This document shows, piece after piece, positions 1-53,426 of a stretch of DNA of 55,605 bases. Numbering within the stretch: position 1 is the first letter of the stretch; each line of letters starts with the position of its first letter. The DNA is from an uncultured Bacteroidales bacterium (GTDB lineage Bacteria > Bacteroidota > Bacteroidia > Bacteroidales > FEN-979): contig CAIMWF010000114.1 in the NCBI GenBank assembly GCA_903845055.1, forward strand, positions 1 through 55,605, written 5' to 3'. The notes under the pieces are model-generated. The model saw only the letters and a program-made list of their open reading frames with translations, made no database searches and was not told where the DNA came from. The position numbers were made by a program, and so were the translations under genes.

Positions 1-24
1 CAAATCCCCAAATTTCCACATCAT
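1..24. repeat. CAAATYYY octamer array (3 units)
   Basis: Three 8-bp units (CAAATCCC, CAAATTTC, CACATCAT) sit at the left edge and run into the stop codon of the DUF4249 gene at 21-23. The same octamer family recurs at 5862, 46501 and 49329. The array may continue beyond the window. Confidence 0.6.
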
Positions 25-866
25 TTTGCAATCGTCTTCGCGAAACTGTTCGAATATGCCGCAAAAAAACCGATCCCTCCGTTGTTGACATTTCCGACAA
101 TGTTTGCAGGTGGCCCGGTAAAAAATGGTATGTTGAACCCCGAACGGTCGACCTCTTCGATAAAATTATAATATTGTTTTGTAATCGCCGACATCTGGAC
201 CATAATGGTATCGCCCGGGTAAAGCGTCTCCCATTTGTTGGCATTGTTGATCCGCCTGATCGGGATGCCGTTCATGTAGCTGCCGTTGTAAAATTTGTCG
301 TTGGAGATTATTTTTTTTGTGATGGTATCCGTCATCAGGTGTCCGTTCCGGTATATGTTGAAAAGGTAATAATTTTCCTGGTCGGCCGGGTCCTGCGCCC
401 AGATTTTTATGATCCACCTCCCTTCGGTGCCGAGGGTGGGATCAAAAATAGCGCTCACCGAATCGAGGCGGGTCACCGGTAGCAGGGCTGAGGAGGCCTC
501 CACATTTGTTTTGCCGGCAATGGCTGCGTGGAGGCTGACATGGAGGGTATAGGTTTTGCCAACCTGCCCGGCAAATCCCGGATCGGTATGGTAAATCCCG
601 GAGACTCCCGGGACTGTTTCGTGCAACTGGAAAATGTTCGATCCGTCGCTGAGGGTTACCCCGGCGCTCACAATCCTTGGGGCCGGCTGATCAGAAAAAT
701 AATCCGATGATTCCGTCAGTGCGATCGCGTAGGTCCCCGTATCCGATTGCACGCTCCCGTCAACCACGACCCGCGTGAAGGTGGTGTCGAGCTTCACGTT
801 TATCTTTTCGGTACAGGATGCTGCCAGTAAACCCAGCAGGATCAGATGCAGAATTCTTTTAATCAT
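21..866 (-). CDS. DUF4249 family outer-membrane lipoprotein
   Basis: A 281-residue protein of the DUF4249 type, which in Bacteroidota typically accompanies a TonB-dependent receptor. An ATG at 948-950 would give 28 extra residues, but the start at 864-866 is preferred because it begins a clean lipoprotein signal peptide with lipobox LAASC (Cys18). This start codon overlaps the 3' end of the upstream receptor gene (ATGATTAA, 8-bp overlap), so the two are probably translationally coupled. The rest looks beta-rich (RVVVDGSV near the N-terminus, aromatic C-terminal half). By analogy with SusD-like partners it may be a surface-exposed lid or ligand-binding subunit for the receptor, but the substrate is unknown. 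The family call is by remembered resemblance; the lipoprotein call is read directly. Confidence 0.8.
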   Translation of the reverse strand: MIKRILHLILLGLLAASCTEKINVKLDTTFTRVVVDGSVQSDTGTYAIALTESSDYFSDQPAPRIVSAGVTLSDGSNIFQLHETVPGVSGIYHTDPGFAGQVGKTYTLHVSLHAAIAGKTNVEASSALLPVTRLDSVSAIFDPTLGTEGRWIIKIWAQDPADQENYYLFNIYRNGHLMTDTITKKIISNDKFYNGSYMNGIPIRRINNANKWETLYPGDTIMVQMSAITKQYYNFIEEVDRSGFNIPFFTGPPANIVGNVNNGGIGFFAAYSNSFAKTIAK

Positions 867-3225
867 TGTTGAAGTGAAAATTAAAGGTGACAGAAGGAAT
901 GATGCCGAACAGGTAAACTTTTTCGGCATAGGTGGTATTCGGGTTGACATTGTCCTGTGTAAAGTTGATCGACCAGGTATTGTGGCGGTTGTATGCGTTG
1001 TAAACGGAGAAGTTAAGATCCCAGCGGAACTTCTGGCCGGGTTTCTCCTTGCTGTAAAGGGTCAGGGCCAGGTCGAGCCGGTGGTAATCCTGGTAGCGGT
1101 ACTGGTTACGGTCGGAATAGATCGGCACGATCTTGCCACCGATCTCCGCCCTCCCGGTCGGAAAGGTGACCGGCGCCCCGGTGGCATAAACCCAGTTTGC
1201 AGAAATGGAGATCCTTTTGCTGATGGCATAGTTTGCAACAACTGAAATATTGTTGGGCTTGTCGTATGGCGCAGGGTAGGGGTTGCCGCCGTTGATCCCG
1301 CTGATCTGCCTGAAAGTACGCGACCATGTGTAGCTTACCCAGCCGTTGAGCTTTGTACCGTTTAGCCGCACCAGGCATTCAACGCCATACGACCACGCAT
1401 TTCCCGTCCTGATCTCGCCCTCCAGCTTGTTGTTGAGCAGCAGGCTGGCAAAATCCTTGAAGTCGACCACGTGCTGCATCCATTTGTAATAACCTTCCAC
1501 GGAAGTTTCAACGGTATTTTTTCTGAAATTCCTGAAATATCCCACAGCCACCTGGTCGGCGATCTGTGGCCTTACATTTGGACTGGCCGGGAACCATATA
1601 TCGAGCGGCGTTCCGACTGTCGAGTTCTGCGCCAGCTGAAGGTACTGGAAGGTGCGGGCGTAGCTTGCCTTGATCGACTGGCGGCTGTCAAAGTCGTAAA
1701 GCAGTCCCAGCCTGGGTTCAAGTCCGGTATAGGTGTGATACAGGGTACCTGATTTATAAACGGTCGAATCGACCGCCTTGTAAGCAGTGTCATAATGAAA
1801 TACCGTTCCCGGGCCGGTATTCTGGAACATCGAAAATCTCAGCCCGTATTTTGCCGTGAAATGATCCCCGAGTTTTTGCTCGTTGCTGGCGTATACCCCG
1901 GTTTCAAAGCCATAGTTGTTGGGTACTTTCACCGTGGATACAACGGTTTTGTCGCCGGTTCCCTTTGCCTCCCCCGGGCTGAACATATGGTAAATCTCAG
2001 AAACCCCGAACTTGAGGGTGTTTTTGGTGTTCAGGTAATAACTGAAGTCGTATTTCAGCCCGAGGTCGCGGAGGTTCGAGGTCCAGACAAACGAAGTAGT
2101 GCTGGCATCCGGGGTGCCCAGGTTATAGAGGTAGTTGCTGTAGATAATAGATAAATTTGAAAACAACTGCCTCGTAAAGAGATGGTTCCATCGGAAGCTG
2201 GCTGTTTCATTGCCCCATTTCATACCTGCGAAACTGTTCTTGAAAACATCGCGGCCGAAATACCCCGACAGGAATATCTGGTTGTTGTCGTTGATCTTGT
2301 AATTGATCTTGGCGTTCAGGTCGTAAAAGTAAAGGCTGTTGTTGTGAAGGGCTTTGTTGGAGGAGAGCGGCAGGAAAATATCGGCATAGGTGCGCCGGCC
2401 TGAAACCACGAACGAACAGCGGTTTTTCAGGATCGGCCCCTCGATGGTGAGGCGGCTGGCAATAAGGCCGATGCCCCCGTTGACTTCGAATTTTTTTGAG
2501 TTGCCTTCGTTCATCCGGATGTCCAGTACCGAAGCAAGTCTTCCACCGTAGTTTGCCGGCAGGTCGCCCTTGTAAAGTTTGACGTCCTTGATGGCATCGT
2601 TGTTGAAAACCGAGAAAAATCCCATGAGATGCGAAGCGTTGTAAACCGTTGCCTCATCGAGCAGGATCAGGTTCTGGTCGGGCGCTCCCCCGCGCACGCT
2701 GAAGCCGCTCGAACCTTCACCCACCGACTGCACGCCGGGTAGCATCTGGATGGCCTTGATGACATCCACTTCGCCGAACAGGGCCGGGATGTGCTGGATG
2801 GTCTTGATATCCATCCTGAAGGTGCTCATTTCGGGCTTGACAACATTCTTGTCATTTTTTTCGCTGGTGATCTCAACCTCCTTCAGGTCGCGCATCAGGG
2901 GTTCCATCTCCTGGTTGATCTTCAGAACAGACTTCGGGTCCAGTTCCAGGGTTTTGTAAACGGTCTTGTATCCGACATAGGAATACACCAGCGACCATGT
3001 GCCGATGTTAAGGGTGAGCGAATAATTCCCGTACATATCGGAAACGGCGCCACTCTTCAGTTCTTTGACGAACACCGTCGCACCTACCAGCGCTTCACCA
3101 CTGTTTTTGTCGGTTATTTTTCCGCTGATGGAGACATGGGTCGGCCCGTCAACCGGAGAAGCTGAACCTAGAAAGGATATGAAAAAGAAAATACAAAGAA
3201 AAAAGGAGGAAACAGGATTCTTCAT
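859..3225 (-). CDS. TonB-dependent receptor with carboxypeptidase-regulatory-like domain
   Basis: A 788-residue outer-membrane receptor. Order: signal peptide (about 1-24), carboxypeptidase-regulatory-like beta-sandwich (about 32-110, with SGKITDKNSGEALVGATVFV), plug domain (about 125-240, with LPGVQSVGEGSSGFSVRGG and the LLDEATVYN segment), then a beta-barrel ending in FNFHFNND. The family imports ligands that porins cannot pass, using TonB/ExbB/ExbD energy. It follows tsaC with a 21-bp gap and overlaps the DUF4249 gene by 8 bp, so the three probably share a transcript. The plug wording (VRGGAPDQNLILLDE) is the variety usually paired with DUF4249 rather than SusD. Substrate cannot be told from sequence, and no sigma/anti-sigma pair or glycosidase lies next to it to hint at one. 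Confidence 0.9.
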   Translation of the reverse strand: MKNPVSSFFLCIFFFISFLGSASPVDGPTHVSISGKITDKNSGEALVGATVFVKELKSGAVSDMYGNYSLTLNIGTWSLVYSYVGYKTVYKTLELDPKSVLKINQEMEPLMRDLKEVEITSEKNDKNVVKPEMSTFRMDIKTIQHIPALFGEVDVIKAIQMLPGVQSVGEGSSGFSVRGGAPDQNLILLDEATVYNASHLMGFFSVFNNDAIKDVKLYKGDLPANYGGRLASVLDIRMNEGNSKKFEVNGGIGLIASRLTIEGPILKNRCSFVVSGRRTYADIFLPLSSNKALHNNSLYFYDLNAKINYKINDNNQIFLSGYFGRDVFKNSFAGMKWGNETASFRWNHLFTRQLFSNLSIIYSNYLYNLGTPDASTTSFVWTSNLRDLGLKYDFSYYLNTKNTLKFGVSEIYHMFSPGEAKGTGDKTVVSTVKVPNNYGFETGVYASNEQKLGDHFTAKYGLRFSMFQNTGPGTVFHYDTAYKAVDSTVYKSGTLYHTYTGLEPRLGLLYDFDSRQSIKASYARTFQYLQLAQNSTVGTPLDIWFPASPNVRPQIADQVAVGYFRNFRKNTVETSVEGYYKWMQHVVDFKDFASLLLNNKLEGEIRTGNAWSYGVECLVRLNGTKLNGWVSYTWSRTFRQISGINGGNPYPAPYDKPNNISVVANYAISKRISISANWVYATGAPVTFPTGRAEIGGKIVPIYSDRNQYRYQDYHRLDLALTLYSKEKPGQKFRWDLNFSVYNAYNRHNTWSINFTQDNVNPNTTYAEKVYLFGIIPSVTFNFHFNND

Positions 3226-3246
3226 AAATAATGGATGATTATGCAG

Positions 3247-3825: not shown

Positions 3826-3846
3826 TATTTTTCAGTGACTATAAAT

Positions 3847-3854: not shown

Positions 3855-3862
3855 AAAGGCAA

Positions 3863-5782: not shown

Positions 5783-5817
5783 AGTGAAGAGTGACGAGTG
5801 ACAATTGACGGGTGATG
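5783..5817. repeat. 7-bp repeat array (AGTGACG family, 5 units)
   Basis: Five consecutive 7-mers: AGTGAAG, AGTGACG, AGTGACA, ATTGACG, GGTGATG. This is the reverse-complement orientation of the CACTCGT units at 10757 and 53414. It lies 26 bp upstream of the dapD start codon. Confidence 0.65.
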
Positions 5818-5861
5818 TTTTTTGCATTTACCAGGGGTGGCATCAATTTTTAATGAATTTC

Positions 5862-5885
5862 CACATCCTCAAATCCTCAAATTTG
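5862..5885. repeat. CAAATYYY octamer array (3 units)
   Basis: Units CACATCCT, CAAATCCT, CAAATTTG, in the same strand orientation as the arrays at 1, 46501 and 49329. It sits in the dapD/ruvX divergent promoter region. Confidence 0.55.
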
Positions 5886-5957: not shown

Positions 5958-6371
5958 ATGGGCAGGATCATGGCGATTGATTACGGGCAGAAGCGGACGG
6001 GCCTCGCGGTGACCGATGAACTGAAGATCATCGCAACGGGGCTGACAACTGTCAGTACGGCGGAGGTGATGGATTTTTTAAAGGATTACTGCCTGAAAAA
6101 CAAGGTTGAATGTTTCGTGGTGGGCGAGCCGAGGCAGATGAACAACGAACCTTCCGAATCGGCCGTATTTATTGAGCCCTTTGTCAGGAGCCTGAAAACC
6201 GCATTCCCGGCGATCCCGGTAAACCGGGTCGATGAACGGTTCACCTCGCTCATGGCAACCCGTACAATCAGGGAGGCAGGACTGAAGAAAAAGGACCGGC
6301 AGAACAAGGCGCTGGTTGATACGGTGAGCGCGACGATCATGCTGCAATCATATATGGAGGTAGCGAGGTAG
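5958..6371 (+). CDS. ruvX: Putative pre-16S rRNA nuclease / Holliday junction resolvase-like YqgF
   Basis: A 137-residue RNase H-fold protein of the YqgF/RuvX family. Family signatures are MAIDYGQKRTGLAVTD at the N-terminus (catalytic Asp in the first strand), ECFVVGEPRQMNNEPS in the middle, VNRVDERFTSLMA, and the C-terminal KALVDTVSATIMLQSYM with the last acidic residue. The family is linked to 5'-end maturation of 16S rRNA and to resolvase-like activity. The gene starts just after a TACCTTTG box and precedes def by 51 bp. Its final codons and stop (MEVAR, TAG at 6369) lie inside an 8-bp repeat array, so the last residues are encoded by repeat sequence. Confidence 0.9.
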   Translation: MGRIMAIDYGQKRTGLAVTDELKIIATGLTTVSTAEVMDFLKDYCLKNKVECFVVGEPRQMNNEPSESAVFIEPFVRSLKTAFPAIPVNRVDERFTSLMATRTIREAGLKKKDRQNKALVDTVSATIMLQSYMEVAR

Positions 6372-6397
6372 CGATATAGCGAAATGGCGAAAAGCTG
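6358..6397. repeat. 8-bp repeat array (AGGTAGCG family, 5 units) over the ruvX stop
   Basis: Units AGGTAGCG, AGGTAGCG, ATATAGCG, AAATGGCG, AAAAGCTG. The first two encode the last ruvX codons. The reverse complement of the same family is at 8576-8607. Confidence 0.65.
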
Positions 6398-6422
6398 AAA
6401 TTTTAACAAATAAATTTTTCAT

Positions 6423-7012: not shown

Positions 7013-7043
7013 GATTTCAGATTTCAGATTTCAAATTTCAGAT
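7013..7043. repeat. 7-bp repeat array (GATTTCA, 4 units)
   Basis: Units GATTTCA three times and AATTTCA once, then a partial GAT, in the gap between def and the TPR lipoprotein gene. It resembles the ACGATTT heptamer family at 8516. Confidence 0.65.
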
Positions 7044-7678: not shown

Positions 7679-7702
7679 CCCCCTTCAGTAAAAAACCCTC
7701 AC

Positions 7703-7729
7703 TGCCTGCATTGCCTGCATTGCCTGCAT
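7703..7729. repeat. 9-bp tandem repeat TGCCTGCAT x3
   Basis: Three perfect copies of a 9-mer between the convergent TPR lipoprotein and cdaA genes, touching the first base of the cdaA stop codon complement at 7729. This unit length differs from the 7/8-bp arrays elsewhere. Confidence 0.8.
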
Positions 7730-8511: not shown

Positions 8512-8515
8512 TTGG

Positions 8516-8550
8516 GATTTACGATTTACGATTTACGATTTACGATTTTA
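8516..8550. repeat. 7-bp repeat array (GATTTAC, 5 units)
   Basis: Four perfect GATTTAC units plus GATTTTA, immediately upstream of the cdaA start codon. The reverse complement of this family (AAATCGT) occurs at 10792 and 53381. Confidence 0.75.
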
Positions 8551-8575
8551 TTTCTTAGCCATACTTGGTCCTCAA

Positions 8576-8607
8576 TTTCGCTATTTCGCTACCTCGCTAC
8601 CTCCCGC
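8576..8607. repeat. 8-bp repeat array (TTTCGCTA family, 4 units)
   Basis: Units TTTCGCTA, TTTCGCTA, CCTCGCTA, CCTCCCGC. These are the reverse complement of the TAGCGAAA/TAGCGAGG units at 6358-6397, about 2.2 kb away. Confidence 0.65.
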
Positions 8608-10751: not shown

Positions 10752-10756
10752 CCCCT

Positions 10757-10812
10757 CACTCGTCATTCGTCACTCGTCACTCCACAATCGTAAATCGTAA
10801 TTTGTAAATCCC
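10757..10812. repeat. 7-bp repeat array filling the DoxX-permease gap (8 units)
   Basis: Eight consecutive 7-mers: CACTCGT, CATTCGT, CACTCGT, CACTCCA, CAATCGT, AAATCGT, AATTTGT, AAATCCC. The array begins 5 bp after the upstream stop codon and ends one base before the permease ATG, so it occupies nearly the whole intergenic space, including any ribosome-binding region. The succession CAATCGT, AAATCGT, AATTT is repeated at 53374-53406. Confidence 0.8.
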
Positions 10813-18019: not shown

Positions 18020-18075
18020 TTAACCGGATTTTCTTTTACTTTGCAGCTTGAATTCAAATTCTTAAAACTTGAAGG

Positions 18076-28663: not shown

Positions 28664-30991
28664 ATGAAAATTCGACAAATTATTACAACAGCAATATTTG
28701 TAGCGGGGATCTTATTAAACCTTGCCTGCCGGGCCCAGGCGGTGAGCGGAACCGTTTCCGAAAAGAGCGCTTCCGGCCACAAGGCCGGGTTGCCCGGCGT
28801 AAATGTTTTCTGGCTCGGCACCACAAAAGGAACCTTCACCGATGCCAAAGGCAAATTCAGGATCGAACGCGACAATACCAGGGATATACGACTGGTATTC
28901 AGTTCCCTGGGGTTTAAGAAGGACACCATAACCGTTGCCAGGGACCGGACGAAGGTCGACTTCACAATGATCTCCGACAACCAGAATCTCAACGAGGTGG
29001 AGATCAAGGGCAAGCAGGATGATTCGTTCATTTCCAGGCTGCGCGCCCAGCAAACTACCGTCATTAATACCGGTGAACTGCAGCGTGCTGCATGCTGCAA
29101 CCTGGCAGAGAGTTTTGAAACAAACCCGTCGGTGGATGTTTCCTTCAGCGATGCGGTAACCGGGGCGAAACAGATCCAGATGCTGGGCCTTTCCGGAATA
29201 TACAGCCAGGTGATGACCGAAAGCATCCCCATGCTCCGCGGGCTTGCATCCACCTATGGACTGAATTATATTCCCGGTCCGTGGATGGAGTCGATCCAGG
29301 TGAGCAAGGGCGCCGCCTCGGTGGTGAACGGTTACGAATCGATCACAGGCCAGATCAACGTGGAGTACAAGAAGCCCGAACACAGCGAAAAACTCTACAT
29401 CAACCTTTTCGGGAACAGCAACCTCAGGTTTGAGGCCAATGGGAACGGGGCAGTCAAAATAAACAACAAACTCAGCACCATGCTCTTCGTGCATGTCGAT
29501 GACCAGCGTTATAAATTCGACCGGAACCACGATGGCTTCATGGATGTGCCGATGCTCACCACCTACAACATTTTCAACCGTTGGGATTATATCAACCCCG
29601 GAAAATGGGTCTCGAAATTCGGCATCAAATACCTGGATGAAAACCGCCGGGGCGGACAGATGGATTTCAATAAATCGACCTGGAACACCGACACCACCGG
29701 GATCACCAACGATGTAAAAAAATATGGGATGGGAATCCGCACGAAACGGCTGGAGGCCTTCTGGAAGAACGGGATTTTCATCCCCGATCACCCGACCAGC
29801 AGTTTCGGGCTGATCCTTTCAGGGGTTAACCATGAACAGAATGCTTTTTACGGCATCAACCAGTACTCGGGGCATGAGCGGAGCATTTACGCGAACCTTA
29901 TTTTTACAGCTGAGATCAAAAGTCCCGACCACAAGATATCGACGGGTGTAAGTTACCTGCTCGATGATTTCCGCGAAAACTATGACCAGGTGCAGCTTAT
30001 CTACCTTTACCAGGTATACCCCGACAGCAGCCTGTTCAAACTCCATGATTTCAAAAAGGTCGACTATACAAGGAACCGCACCGAACGGGTTCCCGGGGCC
30101 TTTTTTGAGTATACGTTGAATATCAAAGAGAAGTTCAGCATGATTGCAGGCGCCAGGATGGATTACAACAACCTGTATGGATGGTATTTTACCCCGAGGC
30201 TGCACATGAAATACCGGTTTGGCAAGAATTCGGTGCTCAGGGCTTCGGCTGGCAAAGGATACCGCACCCCGAATATTTTCGCCGAAAACAGCGGGATTTT
30301 CGTCAGCCAGCGGGTTGTTAATTTTGCTGATAACCTGAAACAGGAAGAGGCATGGAATTTCGGGATGAATTTTACCCAGGAATTCACCCTCTTTCATCAC
30401 AAGGCCGAGTTCAGCATTGATGCCTACCGCACCAGTTTCATCCACCAGGTGGTGGTGGATATAGACAGCCTGCCGACAGCCGCTTTTATTTACAACCTCG
30501 ATGGAAGGTCCTATTCCAACAGCATCCAGGCGCAACTAACCTTTGCGCCCGTTCACAGCCTCGGGGTGACGATGGCTTTCCGCGTAAATGATGTGATGGA
30601 GACCGAAGGAAGCAAACTCAGGACAAAACCTTTCGTCAGCCTCTACAAGGGGCTGGTTACCCTGTCGTATGCCACAAAGTGGGACAAATGGAAATTTGAT
30701 CTGACGGGGCAGCTCAATGGGCCGCAGCGCATTCCCGATACGAAGAAAATGCCGGCCAAACTCCAGCGGAGCACCTCATCACCCGCCTATTTTCAATTGC
30801 TGGCCCAGGTCACGAAAAAATTCAAATACATCGATATATATATCGGAGGTGAGAATTTGACTAATTTTACGCAATCCGATCCAATTACCGAATACTGGAA
30901 ACCCTATCATACCCATTTTGACGGTGCCATGGGTTGGGGTCCGATCCTGGGGGCGACCGTATATGCGGGGATCAGGCTGACGATTAAATAA
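28664..30991 (+). CDS. TonB-dependent receptor, copper/metal-cluster type
   Basis: A 775-residue outer-membrane receptor. It has a signal peptide, a carboxypeptidase-regulatory-like domain (about 28-105, SGTVSEKSASGHKAGLPGVNV), a plug with the unusual pair Cys144-Cys145 in QRAACCNLAESFETNPSVDV, MLGLSGIYSQVMTESIPMLRG, and a beta-barrel ending GVTVYAGIRLTIK. The AACCNLAESF plug is characteristic of receptors that neighbour HMA-domain proteins in Bacteroidetes, so a metal (perhaps copper) or metal-chelate ligand is inferred. It lies between the HYC_CC_PP-like gene and the secreted HMA gene on the same strand, with gaps of 193 and 100 bp. Confidence 0.9.
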   Translation: MKIRQIITTAIFVAGILLNLACRAQAVSGTVSEKSASGHKAGLPGVNVFWLGTTKGTFTDAKGKFRIERDNTRDIRLVFSSLGFKKDTITVARDRTKVDFTMISDNQNLNEVEIKGKQDDSFISRLRAQQTTVINTGELQRAACCNLAESFETNPSVDVSFSDAVTGAKQIQMLGLSGIYSQVMTESIPMLRGLASTYGLNYIPGPWMESIQVSKGAASVVNGYESITGQINVEYKKPEHSEKLYINLFGNSNLRFEANGNGAVKINNKLSTMLFVHVDDQRYKFDRNHDGFMDVPMLTTYNIFNRWDYINPGKWVSKFGIKYLDENRRGGQMDFNKSTWNTDTTGITNDVKKYGMGIRTKRLEAFWKNGIFIPDHPTSSFGLILSGVNHEQNAFYGINQYSGHERSIYANLIFTAEIKSPDHKISTGVSYLLDDFRENYDQVQLIYLYQVYPDSSLFKLHDFKKVDYTRNRTERVPGAFFEYTLNIKEKFSMIAGARMDYNNLYGWYFTPRLHMKYRFGKNSVLRASAGKGYRTPNIFAENSGIFVSQRVVNFADNLKQEEAWNFGMNFTQEFTLFHHKAEFSIDAYRTSFIHQVVVDIDSLPTAAFIYNLDGRSYSNSIQAQLTFAPVHSLGVTMAFRVNDVMETEGSKLRTKPFVSLYKGLVTLSYATKWDKWKFDLTGQLNGPQRIPDTKKMPAKLQRSTSSPAYFQLLAQVTKKFKYIDIYIGGENLTNFTQSDPITEYWKPYHTHFDGAMGWGPILGATVYAGIRLTIK

Positions 30992-31017
30992 TTAAAAATT
31001 AAAAATTACTAATTACG
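30984..31017. repeat. AT-rich ATTAAAAA repeat over the TonB receptor stop
   Basis: Degenerate octamer-like sequence (ATTAAATA, ATTAAAAA, TTAAAAAT, then ACTAATTACG) begins at the receptor stop codon. The ending TAATTACG resembles the ACGAATT heptamers at 53306. Confidence 0.4.
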
Positions 31018-42542: not shown

Positions 42543-42560
42543 GTTCTGTTCATTTGCTGG

Positions 42561-46358: not shown

Positions 46359-46397
46359 AAAGCGGCGTATTACAGGACCTGGTCATGAATCCTTTTT

Positions 46398-46405
46398 CAA
46401 ATATA
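46398..46405 (-). promoter_or_regulatory. -7 box for the type-B T9SS operon (TATATTTG)
   Basis: Minus-strand TATATTTG, perfect TAnnTTTG, 39 bp before the cargo start at 46358. It probably drives all three genes down to 39824. Confidence 0.45.
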
Positions 46406-46431
46406 CGGAAAGGCAGGGAAAAACGAAAAAT

Positions 46432-46466
46432 GAATATCGAATATCGAATAACGAATAACGAATATC
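46432..46466. repeat. 7-bp repeat array (GAATATC/GAATAAC, 5 units)
   Basis: Units GAATATC, GAATATC, GAATAAC, GAATAAC, GAATATC, then a degenerate GAAAATA. It lies in the divergent gap between the T9SS cargo gene and the LKR gene. Confidence 0.75.
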
Positions 46467-46500
46467 GAAAATATCCAACCCATCCATCCATTAAATTTTC

Positions 46501-46572
46501 AAATCCCCAAATCCCCAAATCCCCAAATCCCCAAATCCCCAAATCCCCACATCCTCAAATCCCCACATCCCC
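46501..46572. repeat. AAATCCCC octamer array (9 units), telomere-like
   Basis: Six perfect AAATCCCC units (46501-46548) and three variants (ACATCCTC, AAATCCCC, ACATCCCC). On the minus strand this is (GGGGATTT)n, nine-fold, with runs of four G separated by four bases. It ends 4 bp before the -33 TTTG of the LKR promoter. Confidence 0.9.
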
Positions 46573-46576
46573 TCCC

Positions 46577-46608
46577 TTTGGAAGTCTGCCGCCCTTTTTC
46601 TACCTTTG
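46577..46608 (+). promoter_or_regulatory. LKR gene promoter (TTTG, 20 bp, TACCTTTG)
   Basis: TTTG at 46577-46580 and a perfect TACCTTTG at 46601-46608 with 20 bp between, followed by C. The ATG at 46631 is 22 bp downstream. This argues against the long ORF start at 46385. Confidence 0.65.
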
Positions 46609-46630
46609 CTGTTCCAAAACTAACAGATCT

Positions 46631-47938
46631 ATGAGCAATTTTATCGGTATACGGCACGAGGATAAATACAAACTTGAACGAAGGGCCCCGCTTACACCCA
46701 AGCATGTGGCCCGGCTGGTGAAACAGAAAAAACTGGACATTATCGTACAGACTTCGGACAAAAGGATCTTTACCGATGAAGAATATGTTCTTGCCGGGGC
46801 TAAAATTGCAAAGGACCTGAAAAAATGCTCCGTGATCTTTGGTGTCAAGGAGATGCCGGAATCATTTTTTGAAGCGCAGAAGACCTATGTTTTCTTTTCG
46901 CATGTCGTCAAGGGACAACCCTACAACATGCCCATGCTCCGCCGGATGATGGAGCTGAAGTGCAACCTCATCGAATATGAAAAGGTGGTCGACGAGCAGG
47001 GCAAGCGCCTCATCTTTTTCGGCAGGTATGCCGGTATGGCCGGGATGATCAATTCATTGTGGTCGCTCGGGCTGCGGCTGAAGGAGTCGGGATTTAACTC
47101 GAACCTCGCGCGGCTGAAACAGGCACATCACTATAACACGCTCCGCGAAGCCAAGGATGATATTTCTGCGATCGGCCAGCTGATCGCCGAAAACGGGATC
47201 CCGCACGAACTGAGGCCTTTCGTCATCGGTATTACCGGGTATGGCAATGTTTCACAGGGGGTGCAGGAGATCCTCGGCCTGTTGCCGGTGAAAGAGATCT
47301 CGCCCGAAAAGCTGGTAGACCTGCACCGCCGTAAAAAATTGCCCGACAACCTCGTTTACAAGGTGATCTTCAAGGAGGAGGACCTGTTCGAACATGTTGA
47401 CGGCGAACCTTTCGACCTGCACGATTATTATGCCAACCCGCAAAGCTACCGCAGCAAGTTTGAAGGATACCTGCCCCACCTATCCATGCTGATCAATTGT
47501 ATCTATTGGGACAAGCGTTACCCGCGACTGGTGACAAAGGCAAACCTTAAAAAACTGTTTGCGCGGGAAAACCCGAGGCTGACAGTAATCGGGGATATCA
47601 GCTGCGATGTCGACGGATCGGTGGAATGTACCGTGAAACCTACCGAAATTGACGACCCGGTTTACATCTATCATCCCGAAACCGGCACCATCACGATGGG
47701 GCACCATGGCGATGGTGTGCTTGTGATGGCCGTGGATATCCTCCCCGCTGAACTGCCGCGCGACTCATCCGACGGCTTTGCAGATGTGCTGGTCAACTTT
47801 GTCAAACCGATCGCCGATGCCGACTTTGAAGAACATTTCGACGATCTCGATCTTCCGAAACCGATCAAAAAGGCCCTCATCCTCCACAAGGGGGAGCTGA
47901 CGCCCGATTTTAAATACCTTGAAGAATTTGTTAAATAA
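46631..47938 (+). CDS. Lysine-ketoglutarate reductase (saccharopine-forming) domain protein
   Basis: A 435-residue protein matching the N-terminal half of eukaryotic alpha-aminoadipic semialdehyde synthase. It starts FIGIRHEDKYKLERRAPLTPKHVARL, the alanine-dehydrogenase/transhydrogenase-like N-terminal domain, with RFIFFGRYAGMAGMINSLWSLG and the Rossmann segment FVIGITGYGNVSQGVQEIL. The middle holds the extra LKR insertion (LPHLSMLINCIYWDKRYPRLV) and GDISCDVDGSVECTVKPTEIDDP. It would condense lysine and 2-oxoglutarate to saccharopine with NAD(P)H. Start 46631 is chosen because it follows a strong promoter; 82 upstream codons are repeat-derived. Saccharopine dehydrogenase follows after 43 bp, so the two steps of the saccharopine route are adjacent. 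Confidence 0.88.
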   Translation: MSNFIGIRHEDKYKLERRAPLTPKHVARLVKQKKLDIIVQTSDKRIFTDEEYVLAGAKIAKDLKKCSVIFGVKEMPESFFEAQKTYVFFSHVVKGQPYNMPMLRRMMELKCNLIEYEKVVDEQGKRLIFFGRYAGMAGMINSLWSLGLRLKESGFNSNLARLKQAHHYNTLREAKDDISAIGQLIAENGIPHELRPFVIGITGYGNVSQGVQEILGLLPVKEISPEKLVDLHRRKKLPDNLVYKVIFKEEDLFEHVDGEPFDLHDYYANPQSYRSKFEGYLPHLSMLINCIYWDKRYPRLVTKANLKKLFARENPRLTVIGDISCDVDGSVECTVKPTEIDDPVYIYHPETGTITMGHHGDGVLVMAVDILPAELPRDSSDGFADVLVNFVKPIADADFEEHFDDLDLPKPIKKALILHKGELTPDFKYLEEFVK

Positions 47939-47981
47939 TAGGCTCATTTCTGCTGTAACCAACGTTTAAAACTCATTCCAA

Positions 47982-49325
47982 ATGAAAAAGATACTGATCC
48001 TGGGTTCGGGGCTAGTTGCAAAGCCCATCATCCAATACCTCCTTGCCGAAAACCACCGGGTCACGGTTGCGTCAAACACCCCCGACCGCTCCGATGCCAT
48101 GATTGCGGGACATGTCCACGGTGTCTCCCTTTTCTGGGAGGCGGGAGATGAACCTTCGCTCGACATTATGGTTTCAGAGCACGATATCGTGGTCAGCCTG
48201 CTGCCCTATGTATTCCATGTCATGGTGGCAGGGCATTGCATCGCACATAAAAAGGACCTGGTGACCTCCTCCTATGTCAAGCCGGAGATGCGCGCACTGG
48301 ATGCCGCGGCAAAAGAGGCAGGCATCATCCTGCTCAACGAAATGGGTCTCGACCCGGGCATTGATCACATGTCGGCTATGCGGATCATCGACCACGTTCA
48401 CGAACGCGAAGGCGCCATCCTTGAATTTTATTCGATCTGCGGCGCCCTGCCGGCCCCGGAAGCTGCCGGCAACCCGTTCCGGTACAAATTCTCATGGAGC
48501 CCGAAGGGGGTGGTCCTTGCCGGGAACAATGATGCCGTATACCTGAAACATGGCGAAATCGTGGAGGTTCCCACCCGCGATCTTTTTAAAAACCCGTTCC
48601 ATGTCGAATTCCCGGGAGTGGGCGACCTGGAGGTTTACCCCAACCGCGATTCCATTGCCTACAAGGAGATTTACGGCATACCCGAAGCCATGACCATGTT
48701 CAGGGGTACCTTCAGGTACCGCGGCTGGTGCGAAACACTCGACCTGATGAAGCAGCTATGCCTGATTTCTCCCGAAAAATATGACATGACCGGTATGACC
48801 TTCGCCGACATGGTATTGTACCAGGTAAAAGGTGGTAAATCGGCCCCGGGCACCGTAAGGCAGCAGGCGGCGAGGTTTGCAGGCATCGAGACCGGCAGTT
48901 ATGCCCTCGGCGCCATCAGCTGGCTGGGGTTGTTTGATGAGGTTCCCATGAATCGTACCGTGGATTCGACCTTCGAAGTGACCTCCGACCTGATGATTGA
49001 AAAAATGGCCCTGGGCCAGTCCGAACGCGACATGGTGGCCATGCAGCACACCTTCCTGGCTGCGTTTTCCGACGGCCGCAAAGAGGTGATCCGCTCCCGG
49101 ATGCTCGATTTCGGCACCCTCGACACCGACACCTCCATCGCACGCACCGTGGCCCTTCCCGCCGCCATCGGCGTGGAGTTGATCCTCAACGGACAGATCG
49201 CGGTCAAAGGGGTCCATGTTCCCGTAATTCCCGAAATCTACAACCCGGTACTCGACAAACTCGAAGCAATGGGTATCAAAATGGTCGAAGAATACGGCCT
49301 CCCTGCAACCGAAATGATAAAATAG
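47982..49325 (+). CDS. Saccharopine dehydrogenase (glutamate-forming)
   Basis: A 447-residue Rossmann enzyme. The dinucleotide loop ILGSGLVAKPIIQYLL opens the protein. The family middle shows LLPYVFHVMVAGHCIAHKKDLVTSSYVKPEMRAL and LNEMGLDPGIDHMSAMRIID, and the C-terminal catalytic domain has APEAAGNPFRYKFSWSPKGV. This is the wording of LYS9/C-terminal-AASS-type saccharopine dehydrogenase, which splits saccharopine into glutamate and aminoadipate semialdehyde. In animals and plants it is fused to LKR; here the two are separate genes 43 bp apart on the same strand. The next gene follows an octamer array. Confidence 0.92.
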   Translation: MKKILILGSGLVAKPIIQYLLAENHRVTVASNTPDRSDAMIAGHVHGVSLFWEAGDEPSLDIMVSEHDIVVSLLPYVFHVMVAGHCIAHKKDLVTSSYVKPEMRALDAAAKEAGIILLNEMGLDPGIDHMSAMRIIDHVHEREGAILEFYSICGALPAPEAAGNPFRYKFSWSPKGVVLAGNNDAVYLKHGEIVEVPTRDLFKNPFHVEFPGVGDLEVYPNRDSIAYKEIYGIPEAMTMFRGTFRYRGWCETLDLMKQLCLISPEKYDMTGMTFADMVLYQVKGGKSAPGTVRQQAARFAGIETGSYALGAISWLGLFDEVPMNRTVDSTFEVTSDLMIEKMALGQSERDMVAMQHTFLAAFSDGRKEVIRSRMLDFGTLDTDTSIARTVALPAAIGVELILNGQIAVKGVHVPVIPEIYNPVLDKLEAMGIKMVEEYGLPATEMIK

Positions 49326-49328
49326 CGT

Positions 49329-49424
49329 CAAATCCTCAAATTTCCACATTCTCAAATTCCCATATCCTCAAATCTTCAAATTTTCAAATTTTCAAATTCT
49401 CAAATTTCCACATCCTCAAATTCT
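49329..49424. repeat. CAAATYYY octamer array (12 units)
   Basis: Twelve consecutive 8-mers of consensus CAAATYYY (CAAATCCT, CAAATTTC, CACATTCT, CAAATTCC, CATATCCT, CAAATCTT and so on), filling most of the gap between saccharopine dehydrogenase and the TerB/DnaJ gene. It ends 9 bp before the next ATG. Confidence 0.85.
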
Positions 49425-49433
49425 TAATATTTT

Positions 49434-50321
49434 ATGGGAATCGGCGAAATCATCGTAATTGTCATTGTCATCATTGTTTTTTATTCTGTTTTCACCATGC
49501 GAAAAAAGCCTGCCGGCCAGGAAAAATCATCCGGAACGGATCCGGGCGCGGGACAGGACAGGACAACAGGAACTGGAAATCAAAGCAATGCCGAAACCCA
49601 CCGGAAAGCCGGCTATGCCAAATGGGTAGGAGGTGGCCTGGGTTGGGTTTTTGGCGGTCCGATCGGGGCCATCCTGGGGGTTGCCCTTGGAACGATGTTC
49701 GACGGGATGAACACGGGAACAATATCTTACCGGGGGACACCCCGCGGTGATTTTGCCATGAGCCTGCTGGTCCTTTCGGCAGCTGTGATGAAGGCCGATC
49801 AGAAGGTGGTAAAGGCCGAACTTGAATTTGTCCGGAATTTCTTCGTCAGCCAGTTCGGTTCTGAAGAGGGCGGCAGGCTGATTTCGATGCTGCGCGAAAT
49901 CCTGAAGCAGGATATCGATGTCAGGCAGGTAAGCATCCAGGTGGGCCAGTACACCGATTATGCCGTCAAACTTCAGTTGGTGCATTACCTTTTCGGCATC
50001 GCGGCGGCCGACGGACAATACCATCCCGACGAGGTCGCCATGATCGAATCAATTGCCTCCTACATGGGAATCCCTGCATCGGAGTTTGCCTCCATCAGGG
50101 CCATGTTCATGAAAAATGTCAACTGGGCCTATGATGTCCTGGAGATCACAACCGGGGCTACGGATGAAGAGGTTAAAAGGGCCTATCGTGAGATGGCTAA
50201 AAAGCATCATCCCGACAAGGTTGCCCATCTTGGCGATGACATCCGCCAGGCAGCCACGGCCAAGTTCCAGGAGATCAGCCTTGCCTGGGAGGAGATCAAA
50301 AAAAAGCGCGGGATCATCTGA
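49434..50321 (+). CDS. TerB-like / J-domain membrane protein (DjlA-like)
   Basis: A 295-residue protein with one N-terminal membrane segment (IIVIVIVIIVFYSVF), a glycine-rich segment (about 65-90, GGGLGWVFGGPIGAILGVALG), a TerB-like helical domain (about 105-220, FAMSLLVLSAAVMKADQKVVKAELEFV to HYLFGIAAADGQYHPDEVAMIESIA), and a C-terminal J-domain (about 230-295, VKRAYREMAKKHHPDKVAHL with the HPD tripeptide). This order is that of DjlA-type cochaperones, which stimulate DnaK ATPase at the membrane. No DnaK is in the window. The gap upstream is octamer repeats, and a hairpin follows downstream. Confidence 0.9.
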   Translation: MGIGEIIVIVIVIIVFYSVFTMRKKPAGQEKSSGTDPGAGQDRTTGTGNQSNAETHRKAGYAKWVGGGLGWVFGGPIGAILGVALGTMFDGMNTGTISYRGTPRGDFAMSLLVLSAAVMKADQKVVKAELEFVRNFFVSQFGSEEGGRLISMLREILKQDIDVRQVSIQVGQYTDYAVKLQLVHYLFGIAAADGQYHPDEVAMIESIASYMGIPASEFASIRAMFMKNVNWAYDVLEITTGATDEEVKRAYREMAKKHHPDKVAHLGDDIRQAATAKFQEISLAWEEIKKKRGII

Positions 50322-50348
50322 AAGAACCCTCCTTCCTGAAAAGGTGAA

Positions 50349-50372
50349 GGGCTGTAAGAGAACTTACAGCCC
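50349..50372. terminator. Perfect 10-bp hairpin between convergent genes
   Basis: GGGCTGTAAG, loop AGAA, CTTACAGCCC. It lies between the convergent TerB/DnaJ gene and the cupredoxin gene. There is no T-run on either side, so termination by this stem alone is uncertain. The rest of the 143-bp gap holds nothing else I recognise. Confidence 0.5.
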
Positions 50373-50464
50373 ATTCACTCAATCAACAAAAACAAAACAA
50401 ACAGACTTATCAACTTTTAATCAGTCATTGTCAAAACTGGGTTCCTTGCAGAGACCCCAGGTCT

Positions 50465-51601
50465 TTACCTGTTGACCACAAGCCGGCGTACCGCCGTTTT
50501 GCCGTCAGCTTCGCACCGGATAAAATAAATTCCCACAGGTGAATTGGTCAGGTCAAAGGAATACGCTCCCGACCCGGAATAATTTGCCGATGATATGTTT
50601 TTTCCCGAAATGTCGAGAATGGTCACCCTGATTTCACAGTCACTGAGATTCCCCACGTCCAGCCTGAACAGCCCGGTGGAAGGATTCGGGTATACCTGCA
50701 GCCGGGAAAGGGATTGTTCACTCACACCAACCGATGAAGCGGACTGCGTTACCGTTACCATTTGCTGCGGTAACCCGGTAACGGTCGTGGTAATGGTCGC
50801 CACCCTGACGACATTCAGCGGGTTGGCGGTATAGGTGGCCGTCAGAGTGCCGTTTCCGCTGCCGGAAGCGGGTACCGTGCACCAGTCAGCACTGCTTATC
50901 GATGTCCAGGTTGTATTTGATGTAACGGAAAAGGAGGTGGTACCGGCGGCGGATGTGACATTCTGGTTCGCCGGCCCGACGGTAAGAGTGGGTGCAGCTC
51001 CTGCCTGTGTCACCGTGACGGTCTGATCGGGTAAACCGGAAACAGTCACGGTAATGTTGGCGACGCGTTGCGTTACGGAGGTATTTACGGTATAATTCGC
51101 CGTGATTGTTCCGTTGTTGGTCCCGCCTGCATTGACGGTACACCAACCGGTGTTGCTGGTTGAAGTCCAGGATGAGTTGGAGGTCACTGTGAAGGTCGTT
51201 GAACCAGCGGTAGCAGTGACATTCCGGTTGGATGGGGTCACGGCCAGCGTCGGGACAAACCCGGAAGCGGTGAAGGTCGCGATCATTCCCATCGCCGCAT
51301 GCGGTGTACAAACATAGTTGTAAGTGCCTGCAACGGTAACAGGGTATTCATACGAAGTATTGGTGCTGTTGATTTGATGATCCCAGGGAGCAGCGCCTGC
51401 GGGTATTACGCCCGAAGTGGTTGTGTGCGAACCGGCGCTCCAGACCCATCTCATGGTATCGCCTACTGAAACATTCAGGGATGACGGATTGAAAAAATAA
51501 TTTCCAACGGTTACCACATGTTTTACGGCGAATGACGATATGCTGATGAACAGCACTAAAGACATGACAAGTGGTGCTATGAACAGGGTAGACTTTTTCA
51601 T
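50465..51601 (-). CDS. T9SS-exported cupredoxin/BACON protein
   Basis: A 378-residue secreted protein. Start at 51601 gives a signal peptide (MKKSTLFIAPLVMSLVLFIS, ending near SSFA); the upstream ATG at 51652 is not chosen. The mature N-terminus is a plastocyanin-like domain with the type-1 copper ligands in order: His59 in SHTTTS, Cys98 and His101 in YVCTPH, and Met106. Two BACON-like repeats follow (about 115-200 and 202-285, each with TSNSSWTST/TSNTTWTSI and a GLPDQTVTV/GLPQQMVTV end). The last ~80 residues (LQVYPNPSTGLFRLDV to AVRRLVVNR) are a T9SS type-A sorting domain. A surface or released copper protein with a possible electron-transfer or binding role is inferred. The nearby metal cluster at 28-31 kb may be related. 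Confidence 0.92.
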   Translation of the reverse strand: MKKSTLFIAPLVMSLVLFISISSFAVKHVVTVGNYFFNPSSLNVSVGDTMRWVWSAGSHTTTSGVIPAGAAPWDHQINSTNTSYEYPVTVAGTYNYVCTPHAAMGMIATFTASGFVPTLAVTPSNRNVTATAGSTTFTVTSNSSWTSTSNTGWCTVNAGGTNNGTITANYTVNTSVTQRVANITVTVSGLPDQTVTVTQAGAAPTLTVGPANQNVTSAAGTTSFSVTSNTTWTSISSADWCTVPASGSGNGTLTATYTANPLNVVRVATITTTVTGLPQQMVTVTQSASSVGVSEQSLSRLQVYPNPSTGLFRLDVGNLSDCEIRVTILDISGKNISSANYSGSGAYSFDLTNSPVGIYFIRCEADGKTAVRRLVVNR

Positions 51602-51649
51602 AATGTTAGATGAATATATAAAGTAAATTATAATGAGACTAAATAAGCG

Positions 51650-51657
51650 CAAATATA
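51650..51657 (-). promoter_or_regulatory. -7 box for the cupredoxin gene (TATATTTG)
   Basis: Minus-strand TATATTTG followed by CG, a perfect match to TAnnTTTG, about 48 bp before the ATG at 51601. It supports the start at 51601 over that at 51652. Confidence 0.45.
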
Positions 51658-51779
51658 CAACAATATTCCTGCGGTGTCAAGGGTGTTTGGAAATATTTTT
51701 TGCATGGATGGAATGTTGATCTGAAGTGCCCGTCGGCCATTGCGCTGAGGGTGCCGGGCTCATTGTTCACGAAATAGTT

Positions 51780-51787
51780 TATTTTTG
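51780..51787 (+). promoter_or_regulatory. -7 box for the GH29 gene (TATTTTTG)
   Basis: TATTTTTG, a perfect TAnnTTTG match, 17 bp before the fucosidase ATG. A TTG at 51763-51765 is somewhat too close (14 bp) for a standard -33. Confidence 0.45.
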
Positions 51788-51804
51788 AAGATAAATATTC
51801 ACTT

Positions 51805-53196
51805 ATGAAGCGATTGTATCTGTTATTACTTTTCCAGGCGCTGCTTGGAACCGGCCGCGGATGGGCCCAGGAGGCTGCAGGAAAGCCGGCCGAAATGGAA
51901 ACCGACCCGGTGATCCTTGCGAAGATCGGGCAGTGGCAGGATCTTAAATTCGGACTGCTGATGCATTGGGGCACCTACAGCCAGTGGGGCATCGTCGAAT
52001 CCTGGTCCCTCTGTTCGGAAGATGAGGACTGGTGCAGGCGTAAAAGCAAAAATTATGTGGATTACTGCCGTGAATACACTGCGCTGAAGAGCACCTTCAA
52101 CCCTGTGAAGTTTGACCCTGAAAAATGGGCCGCCGCTGCAAGGTATGCCGGTATGAAGTATGTGATCTTCACCACGAAGCACCACGATGGTTTTTGCATG
52201 TTCGACACGAAACAGACCGATTACCGTATCACCGATCCCGGTTGCCCTTTTCATACAAATCCAAAGGCCAACGTGGCCCTGGAGATATTTAACGCATTCA
52301 GGGAAAAGGGTTTCTGGACGGGGGCCTATTTTTCAAAACCCGACTGGCACTGCAACGACTACTGGGCGGAGGAATGGGCCACGCCGAACCGGAATGTCAA
52401 CTACAGTATCGCAAAATACCCGCAGCGATGGCAGAAGTACTGCGATTTTACCTATAACCAGATCAAAGAATTGATGAACGCGTACGGGAAAGTTGACATT
52501 CTCTGGCTCGACGGCGGTTGGGTGGACCCAAAGAACGGCCAGGATATCAATATGCCTGAAATTGCAGCGATGGCCCGCGGCTACCAGCGCGACCTGCTTA
52601 TCGTCGACCGAACCGTGACTGGCAAATACGAGAATTACCGCACCCCCGAACAGCAGATCCCCGACAAATTGCTTGATTATCCCTGGGAAACCTGTATGAC
52701 CATGGCAACCTCCTGGTCGTATGTCCCGGGTGATATTTACAAACCCACCAACAAGATCATCCACATGCTGGTGGATATCGTGTGCAAGGGCGGAAATTAC
52801 CTGCTCAACATCGGGCCCTCTCCCGAAGGAGAATGGGCCGACACCGCTTACGCTCGTCTCCGTGAGATCGGCAACTGGATGTCGGTCAACGGCGTTGCGA
52901 TCTATGGCTCACGGCCGGTTGAACCTTATAAGTCAGGGAAGGTTTGCTTCACACAGGGAAAGGACGGGACTGTTTATGCCATCTACCTCGCCGAACCCGG
53001 GGAAACGCTCATGCCTGCCGCGATTACGGTCAATGGAGTGAAGTTTCCCAAAGGATCATCCGTCGGCCTGCTTGGCAGTAAGACATTTTTGAAATGGAGG
53101 GAGGCGCCAAACGGGTCGATGCTGATCACCATCCCTGCGGGTTTGCGGAAAAAGCCTCCCTGCAGCCATGCCTGGTGCTTCATGATCAAAAAGTAA
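51805..53196 (+). CDS. Alpha-L-fucosidase, GH29
   Basis: A 463-residue exo-glycosidase cleaving terminal alpha-fucose. The signal peptide is about 1-21 (ending GRGWAQ). The catalytic domain has KFGLLMHWGTYSQWG (typical of GH29), WAAAARYAGMKYVIFTTKHHDGFCMF, and the nucleophile Asp236 in DILWLDGGW. A sheet-rich C-terminal region follows from about residue 375. The general acid/base is not clear, which is common in this family. It has its own promoter and no sugar transporter or SusCD pair nearby. It ends in a repeat-filled 230-bp gap. Confidence 0.94.
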   Translation: MKRLYLLLLFQALLGTGRGWAQEAAGKPAEMETDPVILAKIGQWQDLKFGLLMHWGTYSQWGIVESWSLCSEDEDWCRRKSKNYVDYCREYTALKSTFNPVKFDPEKWAAAARYAGMKYVIFTTKHHDGFCMFDTKQTDYRITDPGCPFHTNPKANVALEIFNAFREKGFWTGAYFSKPDWHCNDYWAEEWATPNRNVNYSIAKYPQRWQKYCDFTYNQIKELMNAYGKVDILWLDGGWVDPKNGQDINMPEIAAMARGYQRDLLIVDRTVTGKYENYRTPEQQIPDKLLDYPWETCMTMATSWSYVPGDIYKPTNKIIHMLVDIVCKGGNYLLNIGPSPEGEWADTAYARLREIGNWMSVNGVAIYGSRPVEPYKSGKVCFTQGKDGTVYAIYLAEPGETLMPAAITVNGVKFPKGSSVGLLGSKTFLKWREAPNGSMLITIPAGLRKKPPCSHAWCFMIKK

Positions 53197-53305
53197 TTTC
53201 TGCTTCTTAATTTGTAATCATTTCAACTTGAAATTGCGGGCTAAATCGATTCTCATCCTGCTGAGTGATTCCTCCAGGGTTCCCATTGTTCAGCAGTAAT
53301 TTTTG

Positions 53306-53361
53306 ACGAATTACGAATTACTATTTACGAATGACAAATGACGAATGATGGTTGACGGATT
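53306..53361. repeat. 7-bp repeat array (ACGAATK family, 8 units)
   Basis: Eight consecutive 7-mers: ACGAATT, ACGAATT, ACTATTT, ACGAATG, ACAAATG, ACGAATG, ATGGTTG, ACGGATT. It lies in the convergent gap between the GH29 and Porin_10 genes. Confidence 0.8.
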
Positions 53362-53373
53362 ATTAGCACTTTA

Positions 53374-53408
53374 CAATCGTAAATCGTAAATCGTAAATCG
53401 TAATTTCA
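53374..53408. repeat. 7-bp repeat array (AAATCGT family, 5 units)
   Basis: CAATCGT, three AAATCGT, then AATTTCA, with CACTCGTCATT following at 53414. The unit order is the same as at 10785-10805. It is the reverse complement of the GATTTAC array at 8516. Confidence 0.8.
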
Positions 53409-53426
53409 TTTGCCACTCGTCATTTC

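Follow-up and report, generated by a model that had tools for sequence, protein, structure and literature searches.

We analysed the intergenic tandem repeats of a 55,605-nucleotide stretch of DNA from an uncultured Bacteroidales bacterium (contig CAIMWF010000114.1, assembly GCA_903845055.1), referred to here as the window. Its source is a draft genome of 3.95 Mb and 175 contigs (labelled G000, 95% complete), where it is numbered contig C114. A preliminary description made from the sequence had reported direct repeats of 7 or 8 bp at 13 places in the window. Such repeats were read at all 13 places, and Tandem Repeats Finder (TRF), with a score cut-off of 30 for calling arrays, called 12 of the 13. 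Array orientation followed the side of the gap on which the array lay, and gaps holding several arrays mostly had the order gene, left-type array (L), core, right-type array (R), gene. The arrays, or arms where two flank a core, were located as follows; no strand is assigned to any feature and all arrays except the first were called by TRF.

1..20, partial right-type octamer array (CAAATCCC/CAAATTTC/CACAT), read from the sequence, below TRF score 30
5783..5815, left-type heptamer array (AGTGACG)
5816..5864, 49-bp core separating left and right arms
5865..5882, right-type octamer array (ATCCTCAA)
6357..6401, left-type octamer array, ordered variants AGGTAGCG to AAATGGCG
7013..7043, left-type heptamer array (GATTTCA)
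8516..8548, left arm (ACGATTT x4.7)
8549..8574, 26-bp core, single copy genome-wide at up to 3 mismatches
8575..8603, right arm (ATTTCGCT to ACCTCGCT octamers)
10756..10810, compound right-type heptamer array (CACTCGT, then CAATCGT/AAATCGT)
30983..31008, left-type heptamer array (ATTAAAA), absent from the list in the preliminary description
46418..46471, left arm (GAATAAC/GAATATC heptamers)
46472..46499, 28-bp core
46500..46572, right arm (CAAATCCC x9 octamers)
49328..49432, right-type octamer array (CAAATCCT/CAAATTTC variants, 12 units)
53304..53348, left arm (ACGAATT/ACGAATG heptamers)
53349..53374, 26-bp core, single copy genome-wide at up to 3 mismatches
53375..53403, right arm (AATCGTA x4.1)

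The array at 1..20, two to three imperfect octamer copies truncated by the contig edge, ended at the stop codon (21-23) of the minus-strand gene 21-950, and the array at 6357..6401 overlapped the 3' end of the RuvX gene (identified by Pfam, stop at 6371). The arm at 8516..8548 adjoined the start codon of the minus-strand CdaA-like gene 7729-8511 (CdaA by Pfam), the start codon at 10814 followed 3 bp after the array at 10756..10810, and the array at 49328..49432 occupied the entire gap from the saccharopine dehydrogenase gene to the gene at 49434. The common unit order at 10785 and 53374 pointed out earlier is visible in the sequence. A search of the window against Rfam with gathering thresholds found nothing but a partial 5S rRNA (55526-55605) where the contig ends, so no known RNA family accounts for the arrays.

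The number of arrays was compared to shuffled sequence, as the preliminary description had proposed. Every gap was reshuffled separately using an order-1 Markov model, in 100 versions of the window and 10 versions of 1.19 Mb of the genome. The window held 13 intergenic 7/8-bp arrays as compared to a shuffled mean of 0.1 and a maximum of 1, and the 1.19 Mb held 209 as compared to a mean of 1.9 and a maximum of 4. The remaining periods from 5 to 12 showed a far smaller excess (32 versus 14.2 shuffled in the 1.19 Mb). In the sampled stretches, where 91% of bases are coding, gap and coding counts were 149 and 14 for period 7 and 60 and 9 for period 8, compared to 8 and 32 for period 9 and 3 and 46 for period 12, bearing out the proposal that unit lengths shun multiples of three. 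The description of the arrays as few families, dispersed and restricted to gaps was also borne out. With tandem units in excess, 7 bp the commonest length and a location outside genes, the arrays belong to a known kind, the intergenic heptamer arrays or long simple sequence repeats, whose tandem units measure 5-11 bp.

The heptamer-pair pattern AAATCGTAAATCGT resulted in 128 matches genome-wide and its backward-read control in none. The occurrence of arrays in relatives, a further check named in the preliminary description, was confirmed with this pattern, which was present in 39 of the 61 genomes searched (G000 counted), including 35 of 37 genomes of the family of G000, with 0 to 465 matches each, and 4 of 24 genomes from other families of the order, with one match each. 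The reversed control had one match each in 2 of the 61. As the G000 stretches were drawn mostly from contigs already holding AAATCGTAAATCGT matches, array densities are biased upward and orientations are not.

Array orientation and pair order were scored in three genomes, G000 and its relatives G018 and G012, leaving out arrays in gaps shorter than 10 bp or not flanked on both sides by called genes. The G000 arrays were listed with their neighbours from a 0.84 Mb sample and fell into 35 unit classes of 7 or 8 bp. In this sample the left edge of gaps mostly read TGACGAG, AGGTAGCG, ACGATTT, AGGCAAT, ATTTGAGG, TCAAAAC and AAATTAA, and the right edge carried the reverse complements of these units, at start and stop codons alike. 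Fourteen of the 166 edge arrays had no family partner and were unscorable. When orientation was assigned from other gaps only, 139 of the 152 scorable gene-abutting arrays obeyed this side rule (G000 97/104, G018 19/23, G012 23/25), at start-codon edges (40/44) and at stop-codon edges (99/108). Array orientation is thus tied to the side of the gap, independent of transcription. Units do occur on both strands, as had been described earlier, but their orientation is set by the side of the gap. The AAATCGT family alone obeyed the rule in 41 of 46 edge arrays, and a lexicon built from G000 only correctly predicted 16 of 20 edge arrays in G018.

A lexicon-free test was also applied. Pairs of same-family edge arrays at least 1 kb apart had a concordance of 0.859 (347 pairs, null 0.5), which 0 of 2000 random orientations attained, and this concordance persisted between start and stop edges (51:13 on the same side, 64:10 on opposite sides). 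When all 153 arrays were split by gap half the concordance was 0.639 (1342 pairs), again attained by 0 of 2000 randomisations. A cruder first test using the G/C skew of each array gave a weaker signal (left 42:17, right 22:41). Base skew of the gaps was rejected as the cause of the polarity because array-free gaps were nearly unskewed, with GC skews of 0.002 to 0.085 on the left and -0.030 to -0.067 on the right as compared to 0.30 and -0.33 for the arms. Selection on stop codons was rejected because ACGATTT, the reverse complement of AAATCGT, is free of in-strand stops and is kept on the left (the same 41 of 46 edge arrays). A bias of the gene caller, in which open arrays are called as coding, was rejected because the coding 7/8-bp arrays, 23 in G000 and 46 across the three genomes, are too few to overturn 139 of 152.

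Neighbouring arrays had a strongly preferred order. Five of 73 neighbouring pairs contained an unoriented member, and the 68 fully oriented pairs were LR in 61 cases, LL in 3, RR in 3 and RL in 1, the RL pair lying within an 888-bp gap. The cores (n=61) measured 3-12 bp in 13 cases, 16-34 bp in 37 and 38-161 bp in 11, and some include worn repeat units because TRF edges are fuzzy. The two arms of a gap came from the same family in 12 of the 61. In G000 this was the case for 7 of 45 pairs as compared to 6.9 +/- 2.2 by permutation, and the arms behave like independent draws from a common family pool. A simple palindrome or cruciform was rejected for G000, as arm matching was no commoner than permuted.

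For cores of 14-60 bp, recurrence above the control level was not found in the sampled stretches of the three genomes. A weak second match was detected for 21 of 33 cores in G000 (controls 117/165), 3 of 3 in G018 (controls 10/15) and 1 of 5 in G012 (controls 13/25), and the cores at 8549..8574 and 53349..53374, the two searched in the whole genome, each had a single occurrence when up to 3 mismatches were allowed. With arms unlinked and cores non-recurrent, the unit resembles neither copies of one element nor, in G000, a palindrome. The preliminary description had viewed the arrays as dispersed copies; the dispersal stands, and the arrays are more than loose copies, as paired arms face inward, their families are independent and the cores do not recur beyond the control level. 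Cores folded slightly better than controls, with z below -2 in 17% versus 8% (41 cores, 180 controls). A core motif, GCCGGCCGGCTAYC, looked recurrent as CCGGC was present in 9 of 41 cores, and was rejected on the full-motif count, which gave 2 genome matches, both in cores on one contig, and 1 for the reversed control.

Orthologous gaps were compared between relatives. A BLAST search with window positions 42000-55600 resulted in matches in 18 of 18 genus members searched, and the gap between the AlaDH and saccharopine dehydrogenase genes was recovered in 16 of these genomes, the adjacent gap in 15. In both gaps the arrays differed by species or were absent. The gap between 46358 and 46631 was 272 bp in G000 as compared to 98 bp in G012, the sole relative in which this gap was recovered, and both genomes kept CAAATATACGG and CTACCTTTGCTGTTCCAAAACTAACAGAT, with both arms lying between them. 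These resemble a pair of divergent, promoter-like -7 boxes of the kind typical of Bacteroidetes. The gap at 8512 was 127 bp in G000 as compared to 23 bp in both G018 and G012, and a similar short stretch with a promoter-like box is retained right of the right arm, so the leader of the CdaA-like gene would contain the two-armed unit. As to a target site duplication of the MITE type (miniature inverted-repeat transposable element), at most TGG flanks both sides of the insertion in this gap, the relatives being highly diverged. In an operon at 17384-18528 of locus L129, three consecutive gaps bore arrays in both G000 and G012; two of them had a left heptamer and a right octamer array in both species with different units, and in the third G000 had a left array only.

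Over 106 orthologous gap comparisons in the three genomes, 67 lacked arrays, 25 had one in one species only and 14 had one in both. The 25 one-species gaps had a median length of 108 bp with the array versus 43 bp without, and the array-bearing gap was longer in 19 of them. A unit common to both species was found in 2 of the 14 gaps with arrays in both, and one gap shared by G018 and G012 provided an example of unit turnover, CATTCGT versus AAATCGT. Slippage and unit turnover also act, judging by the variable copy numbers and by the differing units found at shared sites.

The wider search, across Bacteroidota and other phyla, was for an exact 26-bp AAATCGT array in GTDB, with phyla grouped by record title. 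This array was present in at least 115 GTDB stretches, several per genome. Among the matches listed, 57 were from Bacteroidota and others from Akkermansia, Chloroflexota, Armatimonadota, Desulfobacterota and more. Six stretches had strain-named titles that were not those of metagenome-assembled genomes, indicating that the arrays are not merely draft-bin artefacts; not all six were two-armed. Cultured carriers among the matches listed include Fibrella aquatilis HMF5036 and Pedobacter sp. Leaf194. Outside Akkermansia, same-unit neighbours up to 120 bp apart among these matches were inverted in 35 cases and direct in 4, and were inverted in all 12 from Chloroflexota and all 6 from Desulfobacterota. 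The pair order ACGATTT..AAATCGT was found in 5/5 cases in Bacteroidota, 5/5 in Desulfobacterota and 2/2 in Chloroflexota, again among the matches listed, and the 5/5 inverted pairs in Armatimonadota had the opposite polarity, AAATCGT..ACGATTT, together with 2 direct pairs. A cruder test of the nearest gene edge on the same matches gave 24:2 in Bacteroidota, 1:7 in Armatimonadota and 19:14 for all phyla other than Bacteroidota pooled, that is, no overall AAATCGT bias outside Bacteroidota. Inward pairing is widespread and not universal, with small numbers outside Bacteroidota, and the strand facing inward looks like a trait of the lineage rather than a property of the unit. In viral contigs AAATCGT was present in 25 stretches, CACTCGT in 14 and three same-composition controls in 6, 3 and 6, and these counts weaken the case for AAATCGT being special across phyla.

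Several features were seen beside the arrays in single lineages. AAATCGT arrays of Akkermansia (L170, L178, L182, L254, L262) adjoin GC-rich hairpins, for example GGCGAGCCTCCGGCTCGC, that recur between loci, and at L170 and L178 inverted ACGATTT..AAATCGT arms lie about 200 bp apart. In Armatimonadota (L183, L190, L252, L257) the inner arm ends are often CGGA and TCCG, an inverted pair within the arms. Three cores of Desulfococcaceae HSG8 (L159, L203, L226) end in GACAG beside the right arm, and cores may be partly shared in this genome. The AAATCGT stretches from viral contigs (L274-L298) could be phage or host DNA.

The two-armed units were compared to known dispersed elements. Repetitive extragenic palindromic (REP) sequences are short palindromes with a conserved tetranucleotide, and REP/REPIN elements and miniature inverted-repeat transposable elements (MITEs) have conserved palindromes or ends plus a conserved interior. 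The present units are likewise dispersed, intergenic and inversion-symmetric. Unlike those elements, they have a non-recurrent interior and ends made of repeat arrays of many families. REP/REPIN with RAYT was rejected because PF01797, the Y1-type transposase, had 0 matches in G000 (95% complete); such a match is present in 14 of 19 genomes of the genus. A REP-type short palindrome was rejected because the arms are direct arrays of many families and the cores are non-recurrent, MITE terminal inverted repeats because same-family arms occur only at the chance rate in G000, and a conserved MITE interior because cores did not recur in the sampled stretches and two were single-copy genome-wide.

The record of heptamer arrays in the gaps of bacterial genomes reaches back decades, and previous readings were slippage, translation signals and G-quadruplexes. 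The short tandemly repeated repetitive (STRR) heptamers of cyanobacteria are dispersed and largely intergenic, as are long simple sequence repeats whose units measure 7 nt. The preliminary description knew of no equivalent in Bacteroidales, the order in which Paludibacter propionicigenes is placed. This does not fully hold, as intergenic TAACTGA heptamers are listed in Beggiatoaceae, cyanobacteria and five Bacteroidetes including P. propionicigenes (MacGregor 2015, PMC4679880). According to the portions of that paper available, these repeats mostly point to the start codon (of 170 sets, 132 do so without a ribosome site and 15 with one), a single Flexibacter set behind a stop codon is reversed, and relatives of two of the Bacteroidetes have shorter gaps without the repeats. 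The TAACTGA system there has one unit, read as a translation signal, with a single inverted repeat noted and neither a two-armed unit nor a core described. TAACTGA was not among the 35 unit classes of the 0.84 Mb G000 sample. The STRR heptamers, as cited in the available text of PMC4692102 and PMC4679880, share the unit length of 7, the dispersal and the intergenic location, with no mention there of side polarity or paired arms.

In Xanthomonas, intergenic GGGAATC heptamers form convergent pairs, 70 in one genome and 75 in another, lie 28 nt from the 5' neighbouring gene versus 160 nt from the downstream gene, and in long arrays are not beside the same genes in sister species (available text of PMC4692102). 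They were read there as a G-quadruplex, and Nostoc is described as having few such pairs. The convergence of the Xanthomonas pairs, together with their closeness to the 5' neighbour, amounts to the side rule for one family. As described in that text, the Xanthomonas system is a single G-rich family with an identical unit on both sides, whereas here there are many families, octamers, independent arms and a core; convergent pairs of one G-rich unit were not the pattern found, as a family was shared in only 12 of 61 pairs, and GGG or CCC was present in 4 of 35 G000 unit classes. No statement of a general side rule, independent arms or a core was found in the available text of the open-licence PubMed Central (PMC) literature searched. 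Within that literature a head-to-head rule that holds across families, with arms independent of each other, looks new, and Xanthomonas provides a single-family precedent (PMC4692102). Orientation tied to the side, independent arms and a non-recurrent core sharply narrow the possible causes, and the side rule can be tested in any array-rich genome.

Side polarity, independent arms and non-recurrent cores together suggest that each side gains its own arm through extension of the same strand in the direction away from the gene. Signs of insertion are seen in the syntenic examples, where arrays occupy a gap in which promoter-like sequence is retained. We tentatively propose, as a reading that could well be wrong, that the arrays are one- or two-armed intergenic insertions made by two-ended, strand-fixed addition of repeats at breaks. 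A gap would suffer a break or a stalled intermediate, and both 3' ends would be extended with repeat units off a template of fixed strand sense, candidates being one strand of an existing arm or some nucleic acid that carries repeats. After extension the ends would be joined via filler of a few to about 30 bp, which would become the core, resulting in a geometry like a head-to-head fusion of two telomeres. Later, slippage would lengthen the arms and ectopic arm-to-arm copying would homogenise units within a genome. Under the side rule, with independent arms and non-recurrent cores, heptamer and octamer repeats would no longer count as microsatellites but as scars of insertion or as two-armed elements, and the arrays would serve as a marker of the growth and turnover of bacterial gaps. 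A much bolder extension, which we consider improbable, is that several phyla have a strand-fixed, two-ended process that writes 7/8-bp arrays on the two 3' ends of an intergenic break ahead of joining, leaving telomere-fusion-like scars with lineage-specific units and polarity.

A number of observations weigh against end addition at breaks. Many gaps in the 0.84 Mb G000 sample carry a single arm, arrays distant from gene edges track the side less well (0.639 versus 0.859), and in Akkermansia same-unit neighbours within 120 bp were direct in 13 of 13 among the matches listed. The ordered unit variants AGGTAGCG, AAATAGCG and AAATGGCG suggest block copying from other arms. The 14 gaps with arrays in both species exceed the approximately 6.5 expected from the margins, some gaps being counted in two comparisons, suggesting part inheritance or hot spots, and the divergence of the relatives hides target duplications and exact break points. 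A strand-fixed template, needed for polarity at a brand-new site, was not found. Ku was not found in 19 of 19 genus genomes and RVT_1 had no match in G000 (95% complete), so that a joining or templating enzyme is unsupported. We know of no enzyme for joining or strand-fixed priming in this setting.

The same geometry could derive from a mobile inverted-repeat ancestor, MITE- or REPIN-like, with arms reshuffled by recombination between like arms, a possibility we regard as rather doubtful. Crossover or conversion between arms would preserve the inward polarity and make the arms appear independent, and any inversion-symmetric insertion retains head-to-head symmetry. Ordered compound arms recur, the consistently inverted same-unit neighbours of Chloroflexota (12/12) and Desulfobacterota (6/6) among the matches listed fit such an ancestor, and so does the GACAG end common to three Desulfococcaceae cores. 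However, cores did not recur beyond the control and two were single-copy genome-wide, no residual arm linkage was detected in G000, and gene order was conserved at sites with differing arms; the Y1 transposase had no match in G000, other transposases not being searched. Because the cores are non-recurrent and the arms unlinked, end addition was ranked slightly above a reshuffled mobile element. Plain slippage during replication, acting on seeds that arose by chance in neutral gaps and combined with occasional ectopic conversion to spread the families, would explain why arrays shun genes, why unit lengths shun multiples of three and why copy number differs at shared gaps, and Mrazek and co-workers read long heptanucleotide repeats as slippage (as cited in the available text of PMC4679880). 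It leaves the side polarity and the LR order without a reason, array-free gaps being only weakly skewed between left and right, and is unlikely.

Selection for a symmetric function of the gap, such as a two-way transcription end, an insulator or a leader or trailer RNA signal, appears a little less likely again. Many arms adjoin stop and start codons, the 8512 unit lies between a promoter-like box and the start codon and so would be in leader RNA, and the slightly better folding of cores (17% versus 8%) points the same way. Arms within a gap are rarely complementary, though (12/61 same family), AAATCGT obeys the side rule although its in-strand stops lie on the opposite strand from those of several other families, and Armatimonadota show the reverse polarity for AAATCGT. 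The production of arms by a reverse transcriptase of the DRT10 kind is highly improbable. These telomerase-like enzymes make tandem-repeat cDNA from a short RNA template, 9 nt in Eco3 (PMC12632851, preprint, in the text available), and strand-fixed templating would yield polarity. Against this stand the 0 matches of RVT_1 in G000 (95% complete) and the numerous unit families per genome, and the products described in the available text of PMC12632851 are protein-primed, with chromosomal arrays not mentioned there.

Other repeats were also observed in gaps. In G007 (L072, L085) a longer GC-rich palindromic repeat of the CCCTTCTCCCTTGGGAGAAGGGG..TTAGGGGATGAGG type was present in two adjacent gaps and was repeated in one of them. 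In the window a perfect 9-bp array (TGCCTGCAT x3.1) lies at 7703-7730 in the convergent gap 7679-7728. The G012 orthologue of this gap holds about 8-9 copies of related 9-mers, for example TTGCATTGT, indicating that both the copy number and the unit of the 9-mer vary between species.

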